Assembly: GCA_030834835.1 (NCBI GenBank)
Contig: JAUQXD010000221.1
Span: 1-14,955, forward strand
DNA length: 14,955 bases
From: Thermoflexales bacterium
GTDB lineage: Bacteria; Chloroflexota; Anaerolineae; Fen-1058
Direction: 5' to 3'
The notes beneath the pieces were generated by a model. The model saw only the letters and a program-made list of their open reading frames with translations. It was not told where the DNA came from and did no database searches. Shown piece after piece: positions 5,893 to 14,955 of the stretch. Position 1 is the first letter of the stretch. Every line of letters begins with the position of its first letter. The position numbers and the translations under genes were made by a program.

Positions 5893-5965
5893 GCCCTCTT
5901 AGCTCAATGGATAGAGCGCCTGACTTCGGATCAGACGGTTGTGGGTTCGACTCCCGCAGAGGGCA
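5893..5965 (+). tRNA. tRNA-Arg (anticodon TCG)
   Basis: A complete 73-base cloverleaf. The acceptor arm GCCCTCT (5893-5899) pairs with AGAGGGC (5958-5964), and the discriminator A is at 5965. The D arm is GCTC/GAGC. The anticodon loop CTTCGGA (5924-5930) has TCG at 5926-5928, reading CGA and possibly other CGN codons. The T arm GTGGG/CCCGC carries loop TTCGACT. The 27-43 pair (C5919/A5935) is a mismatch; all other stem pairs form, with one G-U in the T arm. The 3' CCA is not encoded and must be added by nucleotidyltransferase. Confidence 0.97.
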
Positions 5966-5972
5966 CCTGCAA

Positions 5973-6048: not shown

Positions 6049-6084
6049 ATGAAACGCTGTAGTAAGTGCGGGCCACATGACTGA
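6049..6084 (+). CDS. Possible 11-codon leader ORF overlapping the protease start
   Basis: ATG at 6049 has an excellent purine-rich ribosome site (GAAGAGGAAG just upstream) and encodes MKRCSKCGPHD, stopping at 6082-6084. The protease ATG at 6077 lies inside its last codons in a different frame. The protease itself has no good Shine-Dalgarno, so translation could be coupled through this mini-ORF. The CSKCG string also looks like the beginning of a zinc-ribbon protein, so it may be a remnant of a truncated gene. Both readings are inference; a chance ORF is equally possible. Confidence 0.3.
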   Translation: MKRCSKCGPHD

Positions 6085-6553
6085 TTCAGCTGCAATCCAC
6101 GCCGACACATGGCTGCCCCTGCTGAAGGAAGCGCTGGCGAAAGAAGGCCGCTTTCGCTGGCCGCTGCGCGGCACCAGTATGCTGCCCACCCTGCCGGCTG
6201 AATGCGAGATCGAACTGGTGCCGTTGTTGCCGCCGGTGCGCCTGGGCGAGTTGATCGTGTTTGTCGTGGACGATACGTTGATCGCGCATCGCCTGGTGCG
6301 TCGAACCGGGAAGCACTGGATCGCGCAGGGCGATCACCGGCTTGCGCCCGATCGACCCGTGCTGCCCGATCAGGTATTGGGCCGCGTGCTGGCGGCCTAT
6401 CAGGATAATCGCCGCTGCTGGCCAGGTCGCCGGGCGGCTGTTTCGCGCCTCGTGTGGCTGGCGCGTTATCACGTGCTGCGAGTGGTGCGGGCGGCGTGGC
6501 GCGTGATGCGGCGCATGGTGCGGCGCGCGCGCCGGGTCGTGTTGCATGGCTGA
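6077..6553 (+). CDS. S24/S26-family signal-peptidase-like protease, RiPP-associated
   Basis: A 158-residue serine protease of the S24/S26 clan. RGTSMLPTL (31-39) is the signal-peptidase box, with nucleophile Ser34. The second block LIAHRLV (68-74) supplies a His (His71) where bacterial signal peptidase I has a catalytic Lys, and WIAQGDH (81-87) supplies Asp86. This is the Ser/His/Asp arrangement of the SipW/SEC11 (S26B) branch. Unlike true signal peptidases it lacks an N-terminal membrane helix. Instead it ends in a strongly basic amphipathic stretch (112-157, many Arg and Trp) that could bind membrane or peptide. It overlaps the HprK-like gene by 8 bases, so they are co-translated. In the context of a PqqD, a radical SAM enzyme and a candidate precursor, it is the most plausible leader protease (inference). 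The start has no clear ribosome site; see the mini-ORF at 6049. Confidence 0.85.
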   Translation: MTDSAAIHADTWLPLLKEALAKEGRFRWPLRGTSMLPTLPAECEIELVPLLPPVRLGELIVFVVDDTLIAHRLVRRTGKHWIAQGDHRLAPDRPVLPDQVLGRVLAAYQDNRRCWPGRRAAVSRLVWLARYHVLRVVRAAWRVMRRMVRRARRVVLHG

Positions 6554-7367
6554 TCGATTGGTGCTGGACATCGGCGGCGTGGTCTGCGAGGTGAATCTGC
6601 CGCAATCAACGTGGTACGCGCCGTTGGCCGCGCGTTATGCCCCGTTCCTCAGTTCGACTGACCCCGACTGGCACGTTGACCTGCAGCTTGATCCAGGACC
6701 AATCAAGGGTGGCAACTCCTCGATTGAGCATACCGAGGCTGTTACTCGGTTTCAGGTTGCACCCTATGCCGGAATGATCGATCTCGACACCCGACAGGCC
6801 CTTGTCACCACACCGGACGAATTTAGCGCCGACGAGATAATCGAGCGGGTATTGGCCTACATTTGTATGCAGATTTTACCACGCCAGCATCAAGCATTGT
6901 GGCTGCATGCTGCGGGCCTCGTATTCAATGGTCTGGGCTATGTATTCTTCGGGCCGTCTATGGCCGGCAAAACGACGCTCGCAAAACTGGCGCGCGATCG
7001 GGCGGAGATATTGTCGGATGAGAACGTCATCGTCCGTTACGGTGCAAATGGACCGCAGTTGATCAGCACGCCCTTTTGGGGACATCGTACCCCGCTGGAG
7101 GTGATCCAGCGCGTCCGCCGCAGCGTCCCACTGCGGGCCTTATTCGCTTTGCGGCATACCACCGACTTTCAGCTGCGCCCCTTGAGCGCCACCGAAGCCG
7201 TCCTGGCACTGCTCGCGACCTGGATAGTGCCTACCGAACGCGCGGACAGCGCGGCCGCCTGGCTGGGTACCGCCGGGCATTTGGTGCAACAGGCACCCGT
7301 TTATGAGTTGAGCTTTGCGCCCACACCTCAGGTCTGGTCGTTCCTGGAACAGCAAGGATTGCTATAG
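6546..7367 (+). CDS. HprK-like (HPr kinase-related) P-loop kinase, RiPP-associated
   Basis: A 273-residue cytosolic protein whose C-terminal two thirds match the HPr(Ser) kinase fold. It has His121 in LHAAGLVFNG, a Walker A loop GPSMAGKTT (136-144) and an acidic pair Asp158-Glu159 in LSDEN, aligning with the HprK pattern H-G...GxxGxGKS...ADD. Residues 1-110 form a variable N-terminal domain as in the HprK-related proteins of peptide clusters. Genuine HprK works on HPr, but no phosphotransferase genes are seen here. Related kinases in lasso-peptide clusters phosphorylate a Ser of the precursor, so phosphorylation of a Ser/Thr in the 9310-9504 peptide is the natural hypothesis. It overlaps the upstream protease by 8 bases. 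The SynChlorMet and HPr-rel-A cassettes (TIGRFAM-style names, from memory) contain comparable proteins. Confidence 0.83.
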   Translation: MADRLVLDIGGVVCEVNLPQSTWYAPLAARYAPFLSSTDPDWHVDLQLDPGPIKGGNSSIEHTEAVTRFQVAPYAGMIDLDTRQALVTTPDEFSADEIIERVLAYICMQILPRQHQALWLHAAGLVFNGLGYVFFGPSMAGKTTLAKLARDRAEILSDENVIVRYGANGPQLISTPFWGHRTPLEVIQRVRRSVPLRALFALRHTTDFQLRPLSATEAVLALLATWIVPTERADSAAAWLGTAGHLVQQAPVYELSFAPTPQVWSFLEQQGLL

Positions 7368-7399
7368 ACTGTCGCTTCACGAGCGGCCGGCGGCGTAGC

Positions 7400-7440
7400 G
7401 CCCATTTGCTTCCAGCCGCGGCGACGCGCAAAGGGGCAAT
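7400..7440 (+). terminator. Weak terminator-like hairpin after the HprK-like gene
   Basis: GCCCATTTGC (7400-7409) pairs with GCAAAGGGGC (7428-7437) with one A/G mismatch. The loop is 18 bases, followed by AATTTC. It lies between the kinase stop and the internal promoter at 7487, which fits the end of a first transcription unit. The T-run is short, so efficiency is doubtful. Confidence 0.33.
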
Positions 7441-7486
7441 TTCGTATCCAATTCGCTCTGCATTGAATTGAAGTTGATTTTGATCG

Positions 7487-7514
7487 TTGACACACGGGCA
7501 AAGCATGCTATCAT
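7487..7514 (+). promoter_or_regulatory. Internal sigma70-type promoter for pqqD-rSAM-precursor
   Basis: A perfect TTGACA at 7487-7492 is followed after 16 bases by TATCAT at 7509-7514. Transcription would start near 7521, giving a leader of about 33 bases to the ATG at 7554. This would let the recognition protein, maturase and precursor be expressed separately from the protease and kinase. Confidence 0.68.
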
Positions 7515-7553
7515 GTCGCCGGAATAAGTTTGACCGCTGCGGATAAAAACAGG

Positions 7554-7862
7554 ATGCCCGATTTTATCACTGACCCAGCATCTACTGCTGATAACATTGC
7601 TCGCCCGCTGGCACGCCACCCACGCACGGCGTCCCGTGTGTTTAGCGGCGAGGCTGTGATCATCAGCCCGGCCGAGAATGTCGTGCGCATGCTGAACCCG
7701 GTCGGCTCGCGTATCTGGGAATTGTGCGATGGCAGTCACACGCTCGATCAAATTGCAGCGGCGCTGACCGAAGAATTCGAAGTGGACCCGGCGCACGCCC
7801 GGGAGAGTGTGGCAACCTTTGTGGCCGATCTGTTGGATAAAGAATTATTGACCTGGAGCTAG
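7554..7862 (+). CDS. PqqD-family peptide chaperone (RiPP recognition element)
   Basis: A 102-residue stand-alone PqqD-like winged-helix protein. The core NVVRMLNPVGSRIWELCDGS (42-61), followed by the TLDQIAAALTEEFEVDPAHA helix-turn segment and ending DLLDKELL, is the standard PqqD layout. Such proteins bind the leader of a precursor peptide and present it to a radical SAM enzyme. The ATG at 7554 is preferred over an in-frame TTG at 7530 because the predicted transcript starts near 7521, leaving TTG almost leaderless; the ribosome site for either is weak. The N-terminal 25 residues are polar and probably disordered. The radical SAM gene follows after 76 bases, forming the expected partner pair. 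Confidence 0.88.
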   Translation: MPDFITDPASTADNIARPLARHPRTASRVFSGEAVIISPAENVVRMLNPVGSRIWELCDGSHTLDQIAAALTEEFEVDPAHARESVATFVADLLDKELLTWS

Positions 7863-7938
7863 CAACGGCGGCTTGAGCGATCATTGAAAGATTATTGATG
7901 CCAGACCTTACCCGTCAGCGGGGGCGCGGGGCAGGGCG

Positions 7939-9129
7939 ATGGTTGAATTATGGGCTGATCGCGACTGGCGCGTGATCGGCAATTGTCCCCTGATGACGAC
8001 GTTACCGCTGTATCTTCAACCGATACCGGACGCGCTGGAACGCGGGTTTGAAGCTTGCGATCAGGCGCCACCAACCGATCCCTATACCGCACTGTTGCAG
8101 CGCCTGCGCGTTGAACACGTGCCCTTTACCGTCCTGTGGGAAATGACGCACCGCTGTAACTTGCAGTGCGTCATGTGTTATAACGTCCCCCGCCCGCAGC
8201 CGGAACTCTCCACGACCGAAGGCCTCAATCTACTTGGACAGTTGGCGGCCGCCGGAACGCTGCGCCTGATGTTGACAGGCGGCGAGATTTTGACGCGGCC
8301 CGATTTCTTTACCCTTGCCGAGCGGGCGCGCGCGCTGGGTTTCGCCCTCGATCTCAAAACTAATGGCACACTCCTGACGCCCGCACTGGCCGATCAGGTG
8401 GCCACCCTCACGCCGGTGCGAGTCGATATCAGCCTGCTGGGCGCGACGGCGGCTACGTTCGATGCGGTGGCGGGCAGCCACGATACGTTGCGGCGCGTCC
8501 TGCGCGGCGTGCGATTGCTGCAAGAGCGCGGCGTGCACGTGAAGTTGAATACGCTGTTGCTGAATTTGAATGTGGCCGAGCAGCAGCAGATGTTCGCTCT
8601 TGCCGCGGAACTGGGCGTCACTTACGAACAGACGATTAAGATTTCGGCCGATGACGACGGGCAACCCCGCGCTGCCAATCACCAGTTGACGCGGGCGCAG
8701 ATAACGGCCGCGCTGCGCGCCGCTGAATTCTCGTTCATGCCAAAGGCCCGCACGGCCGACAGCCGCACATGCAGCGTGGGCCAGTCGAGTTGTCTGATCA
8801 GCCCCTACGGCGTGGTCTATCCATGCATCGAATTGCGCCTGCCAGCCGGCGATCTGCGCCGCCAGTCGTTTGCCGACATCTGGTCAAATTCGCCGCTGCT
8901 CAACAGCCTGCGCGACCGTCATACCTGGGCCAATTTGCCGGAGTGCCAGGTGTGTCGCATTCAGGCGTATTGCGAGGGGCGCTGCGCAGGCCTGGCGTGG
9001 AAGGAGCACGGCGATCTGTACGGCGGCCATTCGCTGGCCTGTCAACAGGCGCAGGCCCGCTTCGCGCAGCTGCATCCCGACGAGCCGATCCCGGAGACGC
9101 CGCTGCAAGTGATGATCAATGTTCAATGA
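7939..9129 (+). CDS. Radical SAM/SPASM peptide maturase
   Basis: A 396-residue radical SAM enzyme of the peptide-modifying SPASM class. The catalytic [4Fe-4S] motif is CNLQCVMC, with Cys73, Cys77 and Cys80, followed by the SAM-contacting MLTGGE (111-116). The C-terminal SPASM region has Cys278, Cys285, Cys296, Cys336, Cys339, Cys345, Cys349 and Cys368, in the usual spacing (ECQVCR then YCEGRC), enough to ligate two auxiliary clusters. Function by family: carbon-centred radical chemistry on a peptide core, such as thioether, C-C or epimer formation; the exact product cannot be read. The start at 7939 is the first in-frame ATG after a stop at 7885, with GCAGGG just ahead. A later Met (7993) is possible. 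It sits between the PqqD protein and the candidate precursor. Confidence 0.92.
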   Translation: MVELWADRDWRVIGNCPLMTTLPLYLQPIPDALERGFEACDQAPPTDPYTALLQRLRVEHVPFTVLWEMTHRCNLQCVMCYNVPRPQPELSTTEGLNLLGQLAAAGTLRLMLTGGEILTRPDFFTLAERARALGFALDLKTNGTLLTPALADQVATLTPVRVDISLLGATAATFDAVAGSHDTLRRVLRGVRLLQERGVHVKLNTLLLNLNVAEQQQMFALAAELGVTYEQTIKISADDDGQPRAANHQLTRAQITAALRAAEFSFMPKARTADSRTCSVGQSSCLISPYGVVYPCIELRLPAGDLRRQSFADIWSNSPLLNSLRDRHTWANLPECQVCRIQAYCEGRCAGLAWKEHGDLYGGHSLACQQAQARFAQLHPDEPIPETPLQVMINVQ

Positions 9130-9144
9130 TCAATCTACAGTGGT

Positions 9145-9252
9145 TTCCAGGTTAGTCTACGGTATTGGAATCGAGGCTTCAGCCGGATCCGCCGCATACC
9201 AGCCAACCGGCTAAAGCCTCGACTCCAAACGAGACCGTAAATCAAACTGGAA
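9145..9252. repeat. Large imperfect palindrome (REP-like) between maturase and precursor
   Basis: The core stem pairs 9165-9186 with 9207-9228: TTGGA/TCCAA, CGAGGCT/AGCCTCG and AGCCGG/CCGGCT. The blocks are separated by two symmetric 2x2 mismatches (18 of 22 pairs), and the loop is 20 bases. Outer matches (TACGGT/ACCGTA, TTCCAG/CTGGAA) extend the symmetry to about 108 bases. The GGCTTTAGCCGG-like arm has the look of a dispersed REP palindrome; other copies are not in this window. Position suggests mRNA processing or attenuation between the enzyme and peptide genes. Confidence 0.7.
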
Positions 9253-9309
9253 TCTGCTCTAAGCGCGATAATTTGAAACTCATCATGCTTGTTAAGGAGA
9301 CCGTATAAC

Positions 9310-9504
9310 ATGAACACGAATCCCGAACTTATCGATCAAGCCGATCAACCCGTGCGCCCTGCGAAGAAAGCGTGGGTTGAGCCGGCGATACTGGTGGAGC
9401 GTCCGCTGGAAGCGCGGGCCGATGACTTACCGCGCATGTTTCCCACGCCGACCGGGCGTATGGGGCCGCTGGGAACAGCAAGCGGTAGCGGCCAGTGCGG
9501 ATAA
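9310..9504 (+). CDS. Candidate RiPP precursor peptide
   Basis: A 64-residue peptide with a textbook precursor shape. AAGGAG at 9294-9299 is 10 bases upstream of the ATG; a TTG at 9289 in frame is not needed. Residues 1-37 form a charged leader containing KKAWVEPAIL (19-28), a Trp-x-x-Pro motif like the Tyr-x-x-Pro motif that PqqD-type domains bind in lasso and related leaders. The leader ends LEARA (33-37); Ala35-Arg36-Ala37 is an A-x-A site as cut by signal peptidases, matching the S26-like protease upstream. Cleavage there would free residues 38-64, a Gly/Pro/Thr/Ser-rich core with a single Cys63 in the C-terminal SGSGQCG. It is directly downstream of the radical SAM gene. No family name is recognised; modification and cut site are inferences. 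Confidence 0.75.
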   Translation: MNTNPELIDQADQPVRPAKKAWVEPAILVERPLEARADDLPRMFPTPTGRMGPLGTASGSGQCG

Positions 9505-9704: not shown

Positions 9705-12674
9705 ATGAAGCACAAATTCATTTCGATGGTGATTATTGCGGTGTTGGCGGTAAGTGTGTGGGGGGCGATGCCGGTGAAGGCTGCGCCGACGGCGACGACG
9801 TATTACTCGCAAGGTAGCTTGCCGCCTGACTCAACTTCTAGTTGGAACACGGGAAGGAATGCCGGTGGCTCATCTCCAGCTGATTTCGCAAGTGGGGATG
9901 TATTCGTCATTCAGAACGGTCACAACATGACCACAAGCGCTGCCTGGAATATCTCTGGAACTGGCTCGAAATTGTGGATTGAAAACGGCGGTACGCTGAC
10001 TGCTGACTTCGCCGTAACTCTCGCAACAGGCACTAACTTTCAGATTGACGCAGGCGGCACGTATGTTCACAATAATACTACTGCATTTGGGTCTTCGATC
10101 TTCCGGGGCACTGAGTCTTTCGATGCGGCCAGTACGGTAATCCTCAGCAACTCGAACACCACGGGACCCTCCAGCGTGGCGTTTGGGAATCTAACCATTA
10201 ACTTCACCTCAGATCCGGGTGGTGCTGTCCACTGTGATGGCGGGTTGACCACAATCAACGGAAACCTCACGCTTATTGGCACGAGCACTCGCGAGTTTCA
10301 TTTAGTGGCGAATACCCCCAGTGGTTCCACTTATGCTGTCGGCAAGGATCTGATCATTCAGGGTGGAACGTTCAATGTAAGCAGTGGCACAGCGACGGCC
10401 ACACTCAATATTGGCGGCAACTTTAATCAGACAGGTGGAACATTCACGTCCGCCGGTGTGACCACAGTTGTCTTCACTGGCGGCTCCTCGTCTGTCACCT
10501 TTTCTACATCCGGCGGCACTTTCACAAATACCAACCTGAACTGGCAAATTGCAGCAGGCAAGACGGTTGCGCTGAACACCAACTTTGGCGCGGGCAGTTG
10601 GGTGGCCAGCGGTCGAACAATGACAGTGAATGGGGCATTTCAGATTAATGATGGCACATGGCCCGGCAGTGCCGGCACATGGACTTATGGCGCAGCGGGT
10701 ACCTTGATTTTTAACAACACCAGTGGGTCATACGGCTTACCCGGTAGTATAGATGCCACGCATGTTTATTGGCCTGGTAGCAGCGGCCCGTTTAATGTCA
10801 ATGTATTAGGCGCGGGCGGCATTACCCTGGGTGTTGCGCGCACAGTTGGCGGCACTTTCCAGACTGCGGCGACTGTCACTAATGGCGGAAACTTGACGCT
10901 CAACGGCATCGTGCAGATTAATTCAGGCGGCTGGTTCGCAAGCGCTCCGGTCTATGGCCCGGGTTCGACCTTAGTCTACAATTCTGGCTCATACGGTATC
11001 TCCAACGAATGGCCGGGCAGCAACGGGCCGCACAATGTCACCATTCAAAACAACACCGCAGTGACGTGGGCCAGCGGCTCACGCAGCGTGCCGGGCGATT
11101 TCACGCTCAGCAGCGGTTCGCTGACATTGGGCGGCACAATTGGCGATGATTTGTATGTGGGTGGCAATTGGATCAACGACGGCGCGTTCAACGCCAATAA
11201 TCGCACTGTCACCTTTAGCGGCGGATCGCACAGCATTGATGGCACCGCACAAACCACCTTCGCTTACTTGACTGTGGCTGCCAATTACGCCGTAAGCGCA
11301 TACACCGACTTCACAGTTGACTATACTCTCACACTCGATTCCGGTGCATATCTTTACGACTTTGATCACGTGATTACCGTGAAAGGTAACGTCGCCAACT
11401 CCGGTGTACATACCAGCGCGACGGGCAAAATTCTGCTCACTGGCGGGACAGCGCCGCATCAACTATCTGGCGGCGGGACCTATGGGAATCTGGAACTGGA
11501 CGATACGACTGGAGCAGTTCTGTCAGGCGCCGATACAATAATTGCTGGCGATCTGGTAATCACTCAGGGTCCGCTGGAAGCCAGCGCAGGCGCGCTGACC
11601 GTTGCTGGCAACTGGGTCAACAATGGCACTTTCGTGCATAACAGTGGCACTGTTACCTTCAACGGCGTCAGTGACCAGACCATCAGTGGTTCGTCAAGGA
11701 CCGACTTCAACGTTCTTACCATCAACAGCGGCGCGGTAGTAGTTGTTCCGGCTGGCCTCACGCAGCCCCACGCCAACACGGCGAACAACAACGGCACCTT
11801 GCGGCAAGCCATGACCGTCAATAGTGGCACTGGCCAATTCCTGCGCATCAAGAACGTGGCCGGCAGCGCCGATACGTACTTCGGTGTGGATATCGCTACT
11901 GCCAACACGGTCAGCATTACTGTTTCCGTCAGCGGCAATCAACCGTCGTGTCCTAATGCCCTGGGCTTCCCGGTAAAGCGCTGCTTTGAGATCACCCCGG
12001 AAAATCAGGTCAGCGCCGATGTTAAGTTCTACTACACGCCGGGCGAGATGCAATTGGGTCAGACCTTCGATAATCTCAGAGTCTGGCACTATAACAATGC
12101 TACGCACGATTGGGATGGCCCGTTTGCTACTGCCAATGGCGGTGGTTGCACCGGTGTAAGGATCGATTGCTATGTGCAGGCCGATGGCATTAACAGTTAC
12201 AGTCCCTTCGTGCTTAAGGTAAGCGCGCCCACCGCCGTCAACCTCGCCTCCTTCACCGCCACACCTTCCGCCGATCACAACCTCATCGCCTGGGAGACGG
12301 CCAGTGAGCTGCACAACCTGGGCTTCAACCTGTGGCGCGGCATCTCGGCCAGTGCACCGGACGTGAAGCTGAATGAATACGTAATTCCATCGCAAGCACC
12401 TGGCGGCACGGAAGGCTTCGCCTACAGCTACGACGACTTCGACATCACGAGCAGCGTCACGTACTATTACTGGCTGGAAGATGTCGATCTGAACGGCACG
12501 ATCACGCGGCATGGCCCGGTATCGACATCCGGTGACACTCCGACCGCGATCATGGTCAAGGACTTCGCGGCTTCGCCGATGACGACATCGCCTGTGGCGA
12601 CATCGCCGCTGCTTGCCTTCGGGGTTATAAGTGCGATCGGGTTGGCGGGGTTGCGGCTACGACGTCGCAAGTAA
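9705..12674 (+). CDS. Secreted repeat protein with Fn3-like domain and C-terminal anchor
   Basis: A 989-residue exported protein of unknown function. Signal peptide: MKHK, a hydrophobic core, then cleavage near VKAA (24-27). Residues 28 to about 690 are Gly/Ser/Thr/Asn-rich beta repeats suggesting a right-handed beta-helix. One module type occurs twice, at about 305-385 and 396-475 (QIN, then YG, then GS-Y and WPGS-GP). Another carries TVTF-G followed by TI-G (about 500-690). A Cys-containing domain follows (to about 838), then an Fn3-like domain (about 840-945, beginning VNLASFTATPS). The C-terminus is a hydrophobic helix ending RLRRRK, resembling CTERM-type sorting tails without a PEP or LPXTG motif. 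AAAGGAG at 9690-9696 fixes the ATG at 9705; earlier in-frame starts would bury the signal peptide. The gene looks less GC-rich than its neighbours by eye. Probably a surface or matrix protein. Confidence 0.85.
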   Translation: MKHKFISMVIIAVLAVSVWGAMPVKAAPTATTYYSQGSLPPDSTSSWNTGRNAGGSSPADFASGDVFVIQNGHNMTTSAAWNISGTGSKLWIENGGTLTADFAVTLATGTNFQIDAGGTYVHNNTTAFGSSIFRGTESFDAASTVILSNSNTTGPSSVAFGNLTINFTSDPGGAVHCDGGLTTINGNLTLIGTSTREFHLVANTPSGSTYAVGKDLIIQGGTFNVSSGTATATLNIGGNFNQTGGTFTSAGVTTVVFTGGSSSVTFSTSGGTFTNTNLNWQIAAGKTVALNTNFGAGSWVASGRTMTVNGAFQINDGTWPGSAGTWTYGAAGTLIFNNTSGSYGLPGSIDATHVYWPGSSGPFNVNVLGAGGITLGVARTVGGTFQTAATVTNGGNLTLNGIVQINSGGWFASAPVYGPGSTLVYNSGSYGISNEWPGSNGPHNVTIQNNTAVTWASGSRSVPGDFTLSSGSLTLGGTIGDDLYVGGNWINDGAFNANNRTVTFSGGSHSIDGTAQTTFAYLTVAANYAVSAYTDFTVDYTLTLDSGAYLYDFDHVITVKGNVANSGVHTSATGKILLTGGTAPHQLSGGGTYGNLELDDTTGAVLSGADTIIAGDLVITQGPLEASAGALTVAGNWVNNGTFVHNSGTVTFNGVSDQTISGSSRTDFNVLTINSGAVVVVPAGLTQPHANTANNNGTLRQAMTVNSGTGQFLRIKNVAGSADTYFGVDIATANTVSITVSVSGNQPSCPNALGFPVKRCFEITPENQVSADVKFYYTPGEMQLGQTFDNLRVWHYNNATHDWDGPFATANGGGCTGVRIDCYVQADGINSYSPFVLKVSAPTAVNLASFTATPSADHNLIAWETASELHNLGFNLWRGISASAPDVKLNEYVIPSQAPGGTEGFAYSYDDFDITSSVTYYYWLEDVDLNGTITRHGPVSTSGDTPTAIMVKDFAASPMTTSPVATSPLLAFGVISAIGLAGLRLRRRK

Positions 12675-12904: not shown

Positions 12905-12955
12905 GCATGAAGCTCTAACCTTATGATTTCAGATCATCAGTTTTTGGAGACAGCC

Positions 12956-14955
12956 ATGAATCCATCAAGCCCGGCACATCATTTTTTCCGCAGAATTTTA
13001 TCCATCATCGCCTTGTCGGCGATCGTCGGCGGCGCGTTGGGTCTACCTCAATCGGCGCAAGCCTCGCTGGTCTACGTACTCGACAGTTTTACGACGGCGG
13101 ACTATGCCAATCAGGATGGCCCGGCCAGCTGGACCACCGACTGGATCGAGACGAATGATGACGGTAACGCCACCGCGGGCGATGTACTCATCACGGGCGG
13201 TGAGCTGCGCTTGAACAATAGCGTGGCGACGGGCGTCTACGAGGCCATCGAGCGCGAGGTGAACATGCCCGTCAACGCCACGGCGACGCTGACTTATAAT
13301 CACCGTGATGCGAATCTGGAGGCCGGTGATACGCTGATCCTGGAAATCTTTGACGGCGACGCGGTACCGGCTCCCACCTGGACAGCGCTCGCCACGTTTA
13401 ACGGCAATATCACCGACGGCCCCCGCACCTATGACATCAGCAACTATCGATCGGCCAACACGCGCATCCGCTTCAGAATTTCGGCCGGGTTCACTGTCGC
13501 CGATGAATTCTTTTATGCCGACAACGTCCGTATCGACTACTGGTCGGCCAACACGCACGGCTCGACCAGTGTCTTCCCGACCGTGCAGACCTATTACATT
13601 CCAGTGCCCGAAGATCAAGGCCTGTTGATGCTGGAGTCGGTCAATGCGGCGGCGCTTGACCCGATGATTCTGTATGCGTCCATCACGGTGAATTCGAATG
13701 GGACGTTGATTTACTACGATCACTGGGAGGACGATTTCGAAACAGAGATTGCCAACCCGCAGCAAAACACCAGCGAGGTCTGGGGTGACAACAATCCGGC
13801 CAATGGCATGCCGCCTGGCTACACCACCGATGTGCTCAATGCCGGCAATGTCATCATCCTAAACAACGAGGTTGCGACGACGGCGCTTGACCTGATCGAC
13901 TTCGACGGCGGCGACAAGATCGCTTCAACCGATGCCATCGCGGTGACGCGCACCTCGTGGGCGAGCGGCTCCGGGACGCTGCACGGCGGCTCGGTCGAGA
14001 TGCTGGATACGTCCGTGTGGGGCACGCGCTTTGACGTGCCGGCCGACGCCGGGGATCAGGCCAGCGATTTCGATTATGCCGGTCTGGCGGTGATGGCCCG
14101 TCAGGACATTACTCGGATTTATCGCAATGGAACCTTCGTCGCGACGATCGACGAAGGCCAGAGCTATCTATTCAATGACAACGTCAATGGCGGCGACAAG
14201 ATCACGGCCTCGGCGCCGGTGCAGGCCAACTTCCTGACCGGCAATATCGGCAGCAACTACGCGTCATCCTGGTATACCCTGTATCCCTTCGATCTGTTGA
14301 GCAGCAGTTATTATGCGCCGGTGGACAGCACCGGCGCGGTCAACACGGCGGTCTTCATTCAAAACCCCAATGCTGCGTCGATCACGGTGCACTGGACAAC
14401 CACCGCCGGGGGGCGGACTGACATCGGACCGATCGCGGCCGGGGCAACGGCGCGCGTGATCATGCCCAACACCGGCACCGGCGCGCGTTTTTATACCGGC
14501 ACCGGCCTCGATACCGACCCGCATTTTCAGGCGATTGCCGCGATCAACTCGGGCGGGCAGGACAATGACTGGGGCTATACCTTAATCCCGGCCAATCAAC
14601 TGACTCAGCAGGCGATGGTCGGCTGGGGCGTGGGGCGTGATCCGACCAGCGGAACCCTGCCGAATGAAAACGGCAGCCCGGTCTGGGTGGTGGCGGTGGG
14701 TTCAGGCACGATGAGTATCTGCGCCGATTACGACGGCGACCGGGCCGGCGCGCTGGTCGATGCCAATGGCAGTCACTATGACCAGTTAATCAGTCTGACC
14801 CATCTGGCGCGAGCCAAAGTTTATGATACCGATGGCGACCAGACGGGCATGTTACTGTATCTGTGTCATGGCAGCGAAACCGGCAATCTCAATAAGATCG
14901 CCGTGGCCTGGGGTCAGGACCCGGCGACGGCCTCGGCCGGCGCGCCTGGCCTGGA
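12956..14955 (+). CDS. Large secreted surface/adhesin-like protein (3' partial)
   Basis: An open frame with no stop to the window edge, 666 codons visible. GGAGA at 12946-12950 precedes the ATG. Signal peptide: N-terminal Arg12-Arg13, hydrophobic core, cleavage after AQA (34-36). Residues about 37-200 form a beta-sandwich-like module (DSFTTADYANQDG ... YADNVRIDYWS). From about 210 the sequence carries repeated units in which a GGDKI string occurs twice (318-322, 412-416), each followed by a strand with an A-V or PVQANF segment. This is reminiscent of IgGFc-binding/adhesin repeats, a weak visual likeness. Further Asp/Gly-rich stretches (YDTDGDQTG) may bind calcium. The end and any anchor lie outside. 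Function unknown; probably a cell-surface or matrix protein. Base use is uniformly GC-rich and unlike the preceding secreted gene, so the two were probably not produced by a simple duplication. Confidence 0.88.
   Translation, partial: MNPSSPAHHFFRRILSIIALSAIVGGALGLPQSAQASLVYVLDSFTTADYANQDGPASWTTDWIETNDDGNATAGDVLITGGELRLNNSVATGVYEAIEREVNMPVNATATLTYNHRDANLEAGDTLILEIFDGDAVPAPTWTALATFNGNITDGPRTYDISNYRSANTRIRFRISAGFTVADEFFYADNVRIDYWSANTHGSTSVFPTVQTYYIPVPEDQGLLMLESVNAAALDPMILYASITVNSNGTLIYYDHWEDDFETEIANPQQNTSEVWGDNNPANGMPPGYTTDVLNAGNVIILNNEVATTALDLIDFDGGDKIASTDAIAVTRTSWASGSGTLHGGSVEMLDTSVWGTRFDVPADAGDQASDFDYAGLAVMARQDITRIYRNGTFVATIDEGQSYLFNDNVNGGDKITASAPVQANFLTGNIGSNYASSWYTLYPFDLLSSSYYAPVDSTGAVNTAVFIQNPNAASITVHWTTTAGGRTDIGPIAAGATARVIMPNTGTGARFYTGTGLDTDPHFQAIAAINSGGQDNDWGYTLIPANQLTQQAMVGWGVGRDPTSGTLPNENGSPVWVVAVGSGTMSICADYDGDRAGALVDANGSHYDQLISLTHLARAKVYDTDGDQTGMLLYLCHGSETGNLNKIAVAWGQDPATASAGAPGL

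Follow-up and report, generated by a model that had tools for sequence, protein, structure and literature searches.

Which kind of pathway is encoded by five adjacent genes on contig JAUQXD010000221.1 of a Thermoflexales bacterium (Chloroflexota; Anaerolineae), where known parts occur in a combination that is real and conserved and for which we found no report? The 14,955-nt stretch that we analysed, hereafter the window, is the entire contig (C1175) of a metagenome-assembled genome (MAG) of 6.48 Mb that is 90.7% complete, 7% contaminated and in 1452 contigs. An earlier note had claimed a cassette for a ribosomally synthesized and post-translationally modified peptide (RiPP), with genes for recognition, radical modification, possible phosphorylation, leader removal and substrate, starting at 6049. 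We located the five open reading frames (ORFs) on the plus strand, the first beginning 28 bases further on (Table 1). They encode an S26 peptidase, an HprK-like kinase, a PqqD-type RiPP recognition element (RRE), a radical S-adenosylmethionine (rSAM)/SPASM enzyme and a 64-aa precursor.

The cassette finds support in its conservation and in a match to the linear polyphosphorylated peptides (LPPs), by analogy with which its chemistry is predicted. We consider it about an even chance (roughly 0.5) that the cassette encodes an LPP-like RiPP pathway of Anaerolineae, extended by an rSAM enzyme that makes a change dependent on Cys63 of the precursor, most likely a thioether. At the level of sequence we observe a shared gene content, a conserved leader, paired residues in leader and RRE, an association of the rSAM with cysteine in the core, co-occurrence of the S26 peptidase and a peptidase C25 neighbourhood.

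Table 1. Features of the cassette and of the gene that follows it in the window.
Feature	Position	Strand	Remarks
S26 peptidase	6077-6553	+	soluble, His-type (SipW/SEC11-like), predicted leader peptidase
S26 catalytic-type residues	S34 codon 6176, H71 codon 6287, D92 codon 6350	+	alignment
HprK/PEPCK-fold kinase	6546-7367	+	Walker A region from G136, codon 6951; fold match
PqqD-type discrete RRE	7530-7862	+	TTG start, ATG at 7554; Pfam
PqqD N56 and S93	within 7530-7862	+	occupy the LppB N33/D70 positions
Radical SAM/SPASM maturase	7939-9129	+	Pfam; C73xxxC77xxC80
AAGGAG, likely ribosome-binding site of precursor	9294-9299	+	by eye
Precursor peptide, 64 aa	9310-9504	+	ORF and profile A1
Predicted leader M1-A37 with W22xxP25xI27	9310-9420	+	cut predicted from LppA spacing together with the A-x-A pattern
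Predicted 27-aa core, D38-G64, with Cys63 (codon 9496) as its one cysteine	9421-9501	+	inferred
Large secreted repeat protein	9705-12674	+	C-terminal domain recurs beside cassette relatives; putative pathway link

Conservation of the precursor and its neighbours

We searched 396 genomes of the class with a profile of the rSAM (A2, 10 seeds) and one of the precursor (A1, 11 seed sequences from 10 genomes), both of which recover their own seeds by construction. The rSAM profile reaches E 1e-45 or better in 50 of the 396 genomes, and 16 of these form a tight group (E no higher than 3e-133); the best match outside it is at 8e-97. In a sample of 400 genomes from the phylum, the window's own genome and G018, both in the class, are the only ones to reach E 1e-100. 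Six peptide patterns run over the GTDB representative contigs gave 13 loci, of which the seven closest are all Chloroflexota, and among named records, those whose rSAMs are closest come from MAGs labelled Chloroflexi, Anaerolineae and Caldilineales.

At 15 of the 16 tight-group loci, 66-345 bases separate the end of the rSAM match from the precursor, and the sixteenth (L049 in G024) stops at its contig end, so that a homologue of the 64-aa ORF follows the close rSAM wherever there is downstream DNA (15/15), as the earlier note had expected of a true precursor. The precursor profile gave 37 matches (three of them, G093:C153, G130:C217 and G326, were left out of the flank set) in 24 of the class genomes, 14 of which are outside the seed. 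In five of these 14 (G081, G109, G146, G188 and G198) the match directly follows a close rSAM homologue. These matches rule out a chance ORF.

PqqD is upstream at every tight-group locus except L039, whose contig begins inside the rSAM gene, and the order PqqD-rSAM-precursor is constant where sequence is present. This much of the earlier five-gene block stands, and neither outcome that the earlier note would have taken as a refutation (homologues out of synteny in related genomes, or no conserved 64-aa ORF beside the maturase) was seen; the block as a whole is not fixed, with HprK at 10/16 and S26 at 6/16 loci. In G053 both genes are on a separate contig (L156) together with NTP_transf_5 and Wzz genes. 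S26 is single copy in 14 of the 16 tight-group genomes and lies beside a C25 gene in G109, G128 and G146. Across the class sample, S26 co-occurs with the precursor, being found in 18 of the 24 precursor genomes vs 6 of the 372 others; the query was the window S26 alone, so remote versions are missed in these counts.

The A1 leader consensus is WxEPAIVLERxLExRA, and the core carries G-F-L-G-P-L-x-x-S, usually with G-G-x-C close to the end. P25, I27, E30 and L33 are invariant in the precursor, and W22, R31, A37, P53 and L54 are nearly so. No matches were found in an NCBIfam scan of five relative precursors or in a PDB scan with the precursor profile. The single-Cys core claimed in the earlier note is as described, Cys63 being the only one.

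Leader recognition and a predicted pathway

The closest pathway that we found in the literature is that of the LPPs of Bacillota, for which we draw on the available parts of one paper (Popov et al. 2026; PMC13381572). There, a SipW-like peptidase (LppS), an RRE (LppB) and a kinase acting on core Ser3 (LppK) are completed by an NTP transferase (LppN) and an exporter, and the clusters frequently lie within capsule loci and next to lasso clusters. In the LppA leader, Tyr occupies -16 and Pro -13, and the cut follows -1, within the consensus YxxPxVLxHQxIxFETxxS; on the LppB side, Asp70 engages this Tyr and Asn33 the Pro kink. The paper counts SpI/S26-type leader peptidases as an addition of 2026 to RiPP biosynthesis, terms LPPs and paeninodins restricted to Bacillota and calls the peptidase network "predominantly" Bacillota; neither "radical SAM" nor "Chloroflex" occurs in its main text. 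The earlier note could match no characterised product to the cassette. The full combination is indeed unreported as far as we found, while in the LPPs a relative with S26, RRE and HprK does exist.

Set against the LPP consensus, as given in the parts of the paper available, the window leader has equal spacing, with Trp for Tyr, E-R for H-Q and A-x-A for F-E-T. We aligned 33 PqqD sequences with LppB, PbaB1 and TbiB1, and the control columns (G42, Q79 and F83) came out correctly. In all 11 cases with Tyr at -16 of the leader, the LppB position 70 is acidic (D in 10, E in one). Contig C108 of the window's own genome pairs a Tyr leader with Asp. With Trp at -16, it is S, A or T in 19/22 and D or E in 3/22 (L127, L145 and L151). 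The Asn33 position is Asn in 30 of the 33. Since residues of RRE and leader pair in this way, the 64-aa ORF is supported as the ligand of PqqD.

An Ala at both -3 and -1 is the signal-peptidase rule. In our precursors the residues at -3 and -1 before Q or D fit this A-x-A pattern, which we had recognised before comparing with the LPP paper. The spacing pattern fits 39 of 43 precursor rows, with Ala at -1 in 37 of the 39 (one Gly, one Ile); of the unmatched rows, L052, L140 and L143 differ at one demanded residue and L120 has no leader start.

Based on the analogy with LPP, which makes it the best supported scheme, we propose the following pathway. PqqD would bind the leader at W22xxP25xI27 and present the precursor to the other enzymes. 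The rSAM/SPASM enzyme would modify the core in a way that requires the C-terminal Cys63, most likely by linking Cys63 through a thioether to a residue earlier in the core; we propose a thioether because of the Cys association described below and, weakly, because SkfB is the top solved match. The HprK-like kinase would phosphorylate Ser/Thr of the core, and the S26 peptidase is predicted to cut between A37 and D38, freeing the 27-residue product. The order of these reactions, the crosslink partner and the phosphosite are inferred along with the reactions themselves, as are export and the role of the product.

For the S26 and kinase proteins, whose genes overlap by 8 bases, no Pfam cut-off was reached, and PDB sequence scans with each gave nothing meaningful. 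AlphaFold models built from alignments (A3 and A4) have mean pLDDT (predicted local distance difference test) scores of 89 and 92. The best solved match of the S26 model is the human signal peptidase catalytic subunit SEC11C (E 4e-4, with a modest TM-score, or template modelling score, of 0.48); LexA C-domains tie with it and SipA is close behind. S34, H71 and D92 are invariant in 7/7 aligned sequences, in keeping with the His-type protease of the earlier note; their catalytic roles, including the choice of Asp92, we take from the SEC11/SipW family. The kinase model is closest to PEPCK (6e-10, TM 0.52), with HPr kinase lower (5e-5, TM 0.31), and at these modest TM-scores an HprK/PEPCK fold is modelled and the activity predicted. 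The other two enzymes exceed Pfam cut-offs (PqqD 2.5e-20, Radical_SAM 6e-19, SPASM 5e-11). In the rSAM, C73xxxC77xxC80 and eight further Cys (278-368) are all invariant in 10/10 aligned sequences, and the best solved matches of PqqD are PbaB1 (9x90), TbiB1 and LppB, the single solved LppB scoring below PbaB1.

The rSAM enzyme and the core cysteine

At tight-group loci, every precursor adjoining the rSAM (15/15) carries a single Cys within its final 35 residues. A second group, clade 2, has rSAMs that are 37-38% identical to the window enzyme where measured; its flanks come from 13 of 19 genomes and an Armatimonadota record (L046), and the nine precursors counted there, all found by the profile, have two Cys in 9/9 (that of L046, found only at E 0.35, is outside the counts). 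In contrast, precursors straight after PqqD with no intervening rSAM have Cys in 0/10, although L125 and L127 have only about 0.5 kb downstream and an rSAM beyond the precursor is possible there. Core Cys is thus present in 24/24 precursors beside an rSAM vs 0/10 without one. Because the profile was built from Cys-bearing precursors, Cys-free ones beside an rSAM could be missed; the same seed gives no bias toward the Cys-free precursors found without rSAM. Three duplicates (L034, L036 and L038, of L151, L122 and L150) were excluded from the counts, and five remoter rSAM loci (L053-L055, L152 and L153), where motif candidates exist, are in none of them. Both precursor types are found within one genome in G109, G128, G146, G192 and the window's own, and on a tree of PqqD and HprK the presence of rSAM needs four changes, two of them forced by well-supported branches.

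SPASM enzymes catalyse many reaction types. It is possible, though we favour it less than a thioether, that in the same LPP-like pathway the rSAM makes a C-C or C-O link, an epimerisation or a conversion of the C-terminal Cys, with Cys63 serving otherwise. The enzyme reaches no equivalog cut-off, and its two best solved matches are nearly equal, SkfB (a sactisynthase; E 7.5e-20, 74.5 bits) and PqqE (72.9 bits), which would suit such a change; against it, the core Cys goes with the rSAM in both rSAM groups. A PQQ- or mycofactocin-like biosynthesis of a small redox cofactor would also explain the PqqD and SPASM layout and the near-equal PqqE match. Yet the rSAM scores 129 bits against a mycofactocin cut-off of 265 and 103 bits against a PqqE cut-off of 381 (NCBIfam equivalogs), so membership in either system was rejected, as was GeoRSP, which is also below its cut-off. 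Core lengths vary, some genomes hold several precursors, and the kinase and S26 fit LPP, all of which makes a cofactor highly improbable.

That the shared set of RRE, kinase and S26 stands without the rSAM is clear from cassettes of HprK, PqqD and precursor that have none. These cassettes would suit an LPP proper, a phosphopeptide, beside which the rSAM works on another substrate. We regard this as unlikely, since the rSAM is just upstream of the precursor in 15/15 and the Cys tracks it. In five of the rSAM-less loci (L121, L127, L128, L133 and L134) PqqD begins within about 150 bases after the kinase. The second cassette of the window's own genome (C108, L155:1-7841) has a Tyr-leader precursor ending GSPLGGGNLIDPLGIDPANPQ with no Cys, followed by a C25 peptidase, a secreted protein and another PqqD; no rSAM was found on this contig by profile. 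L131-L134 have a third precursor type with a Tyr leader, an LEVRA/GSPLG junction and, by prediction, Ser as the second core residue; it may be the type closest to LPP proper.

Some precursors lie apart from any cassette. In G192 and G093 there are six orphan copies with neither PqqD nor rSAM nearby. Cys is present in five (L117-L120 and L123), one of these (L120) having a stop within the leader frame. L117-L120 adjoin the secreted-protein family that is found downstream in the window. Our guess is that orphan precursors are matured in trans. At L036:10626-10793, upstream of a C25 gene, a second precursor copy with an intact leader stops at FLGPLKLS before any Cys.

Several findings weigh against an LPP-like pathway with a Cys63-dependent rSAM change. 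HprK is absent at the remaining 6/16 tight-group loci (the contig is cut at L039, upstream sequence at L136 amounts to 0.76 kb, and in G053 the gene is on the other contig), and our S26 search of cassette genomes found none in G018 and G033. The conserved serine of PLxxS is Ala57 in the window, with Ser58 adjacent, and the predicted core starts DDLPR, with no Ser at positions 1-5, unlike S3 of LppA. No precursor was found at 4/14 clade-2 loci (L050, L141, L149 and L148, the last of which breaks off 90 bases beyond the rSAM), and a copy in G192 (C165, at 7772) keeps the leader and ends before the Cys. The earlier note saw no transporter, and no window frame of at least 150 aa matches our one motif pattern for an ABC (ATP-binding cassette) exporter; over 55 loci the pattern hit 1 of 1424 frames, about 9 kb from its cassette. 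The leader residue changes twice on the tree, giving on average 0.9 contrasts that are paired and 1.1 with no difference, and with only two contrasts the pairing of W or Y with the acid is a matter of consistency, not independent proof. Likewise, the two usable rSAM contrasts both accompany Cys and are too few for significance. The Fisher values computed alongside take no account of relatedness and are not to be taken as probabilities. The SkfB match hardly favours a thioether because PqqE scores nearly as high, a near-tie that lowered our confidence, and the best NCBIfam scores of the rSAM are to heme, NirJ and mycofactocin models, none of which reaches its cut-off.

Peptidase C25, neighbouring genes and known systems

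We counted peptidase C25 genes on the same strand within 7 kb downstream, at loci with at least 5 kb downstream and excluding orphans, and found them at 19 of 21 loci, belonging to three cassette types (tight-group 10/11, rSAM-less 4/5, clade-2 5/5). The two misses are L121 and the window, whose contig runs out 5.4 kb downstream of the cassette. Each of 16 cassette genomes (3-7 Mb) has 1-9 C25 matches, some of them fragments, vs 0 in 14 control genomes, so chance closeness should be rare. The Armatimonadota locus L046 also holds a C25 gene, and Wzz-type, sugar transferase and NTP_transf_5 genes recur near cassettes. The NTP transferase itself, not seen in the window, is present at several relatives' loci, and NTP_transf_5 occurs in 16/16 cassette genomes (in the window's, on another contig) vs 2/14 controls.

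These neighbours allow the tentative suggestion, compatible with an LPP-like pathway, that the peptide works mainly with the downstream C25 peptidase and the cell surface (as tag, regulator or substrate) and is not a diffusible natural product. The recurrence of C25 and of polysaccharide genes speaks for this; its absence from the window and L121, and its lower frequency beside orphans (3/9, or 3/6 of those with at least 5 kb) and at loci with less than 5 kb downstream (4/13), speak against. Some secreted proteins and C25 peptidases (at L117-L119, L129, L134, L155 and L157) end in WLPLLAR- or YLPLVRR-like tails, possibly a sorting signal.

The rSAM may not be the only tailoring enzyme. Kinase and PqqD are separated by two glycosyltransferases at L125 and L126 and by a sulfotransferase at L124, where a glycosyltransferase also directly precedes the kinase; the gene order of L130, which was unscanned, is similar. 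All four of these loci have cores with a tail rich in Ser/Thr, for example GPFSTTTS. The link is no more than suggestive, given how often polysaccharide genes occur near cassettes. We also considered whether the rSAM-less cassettes are lasso clusters; at L124-L126 the seven neighbours scanned encode glycosyltransferases, one sulfotransferase and one SIS-domain protein, and none is an Asn synthase. As a wider picture, which we judge less probable than the LPP-like pathway itself, there may be a modular Chloroflexota RiPP class with an RRE, HprK and S26 chassis and exchangeable tailoring that suits each kind of core: an rSAM where the core has Cys, glycosyl- and sulfotransferases where it is Cys-free with a Ser/Thr tail, and no tailoring for GSPLG cores. 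Its products, phosphorylated and radical-crosslinked, would act with a dedicated secreted C25 peptidase at the surface, and one rSAM would serve scattered precursors in trans.

In the window, a tRNA-Arg(tcg) at 5893-5967, immediately upstream of the cassette, is a possible integration site. A hairpin-like inverted repeat noted by eye between rSAM and precursor (9150-9250) is matched, at 77-78% identity, by two more incomplete copies in the genome and is therefore probably a dispersed repeat. A long ORF with no Pfam match (12923-14955) runs off the contig end and resembles the ORF after the C25 gene in L037.

Among the papers listed in our literature searches, judged by titles and the starts of abstracts and covering few subscription journals, only PMC13381572 came close to the full combination, and nothing was found on peptidase C25 with RiPP, on radical SAM with lasso and HprK, or on SynChlorMet. 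SynChlorMet/HPr-rel-A cassettes bring together an HprK-related protein, PqqD and a SPASM rSAM, as in the window, and the earlier note had drawn this comparison. Membership is unsupported, all window scores being far below the NCBIfam equivalog cut-offs (ScmC 20/125, HprK_rel_A 19/200, ScmD 47/100 and ScmE 98/400 bits). With sactipeptides (SkfB/SKF) the window shares a SPASM rSAM and a Cys-bearing core; it differs in having one Cys, at the C-terminal end, as well as a discrete RRE, a kinase and an S26 protease, and its thioether is predicted. Paeninodin-like lasso peptides share the Trp leader, the discrete RRE (best match PbaB1, 9x90), the HprK kinase and, in cassette relatives, the NTP transferase. 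A lasso peptide was rejected: no window frame of at least 150 aa has the Asn-synthase motif SGGxDS, and there is no lasso cyclase or B2 peptidase among the seven window proteins scanned with Pfam. The RRE also differs, with Asn56 where paeninodin RREs have Gly. Beside relatives of the cassette, Asn-synthase genes with PqqD and HprK at L139:337-5741 (there also with an NTP transferase) and L146:1-3489 look like lasso clusters, comparable to the LPP neighbours in Bacilli (PMC13381572, in the parts available).

The comparison with LPP, made with the same parts of that paper, remains the closest. The window has the archaeal-type (Ser/His/Asp) S26 leader peptidase, the discrete RRE, the HprK-like kinase and a [Y/W]xxP leader with Trp22, Pro25 and Ala37 at the LppA spacing, and the cassette relatives have polysaccharide genes, an NTP transferase and, at two loci, the lasso-like clusters nearby. 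The differences are the rSAM/SPASM enzyme and C-terminal Cys, the leader Trp with Ser at the D70 position of the RRE, a core without Ser at position 3, the exporter motif not found, a host in Chloroflexota instead of Bacillota, and a C25 peptidase downstream in most of the relatives whose sequence extends far enough. The cassette puts an LPP-like chassis in a phylum other than Bacillota and joins to it a radical enzyme along with a corresponding cysteine. Where one genome holds a cassette that has the rSAM and another that lacks it, the pair can test what this enzyme does, and the frequent C25 neighbour is a first handle on the role of the peptide group.

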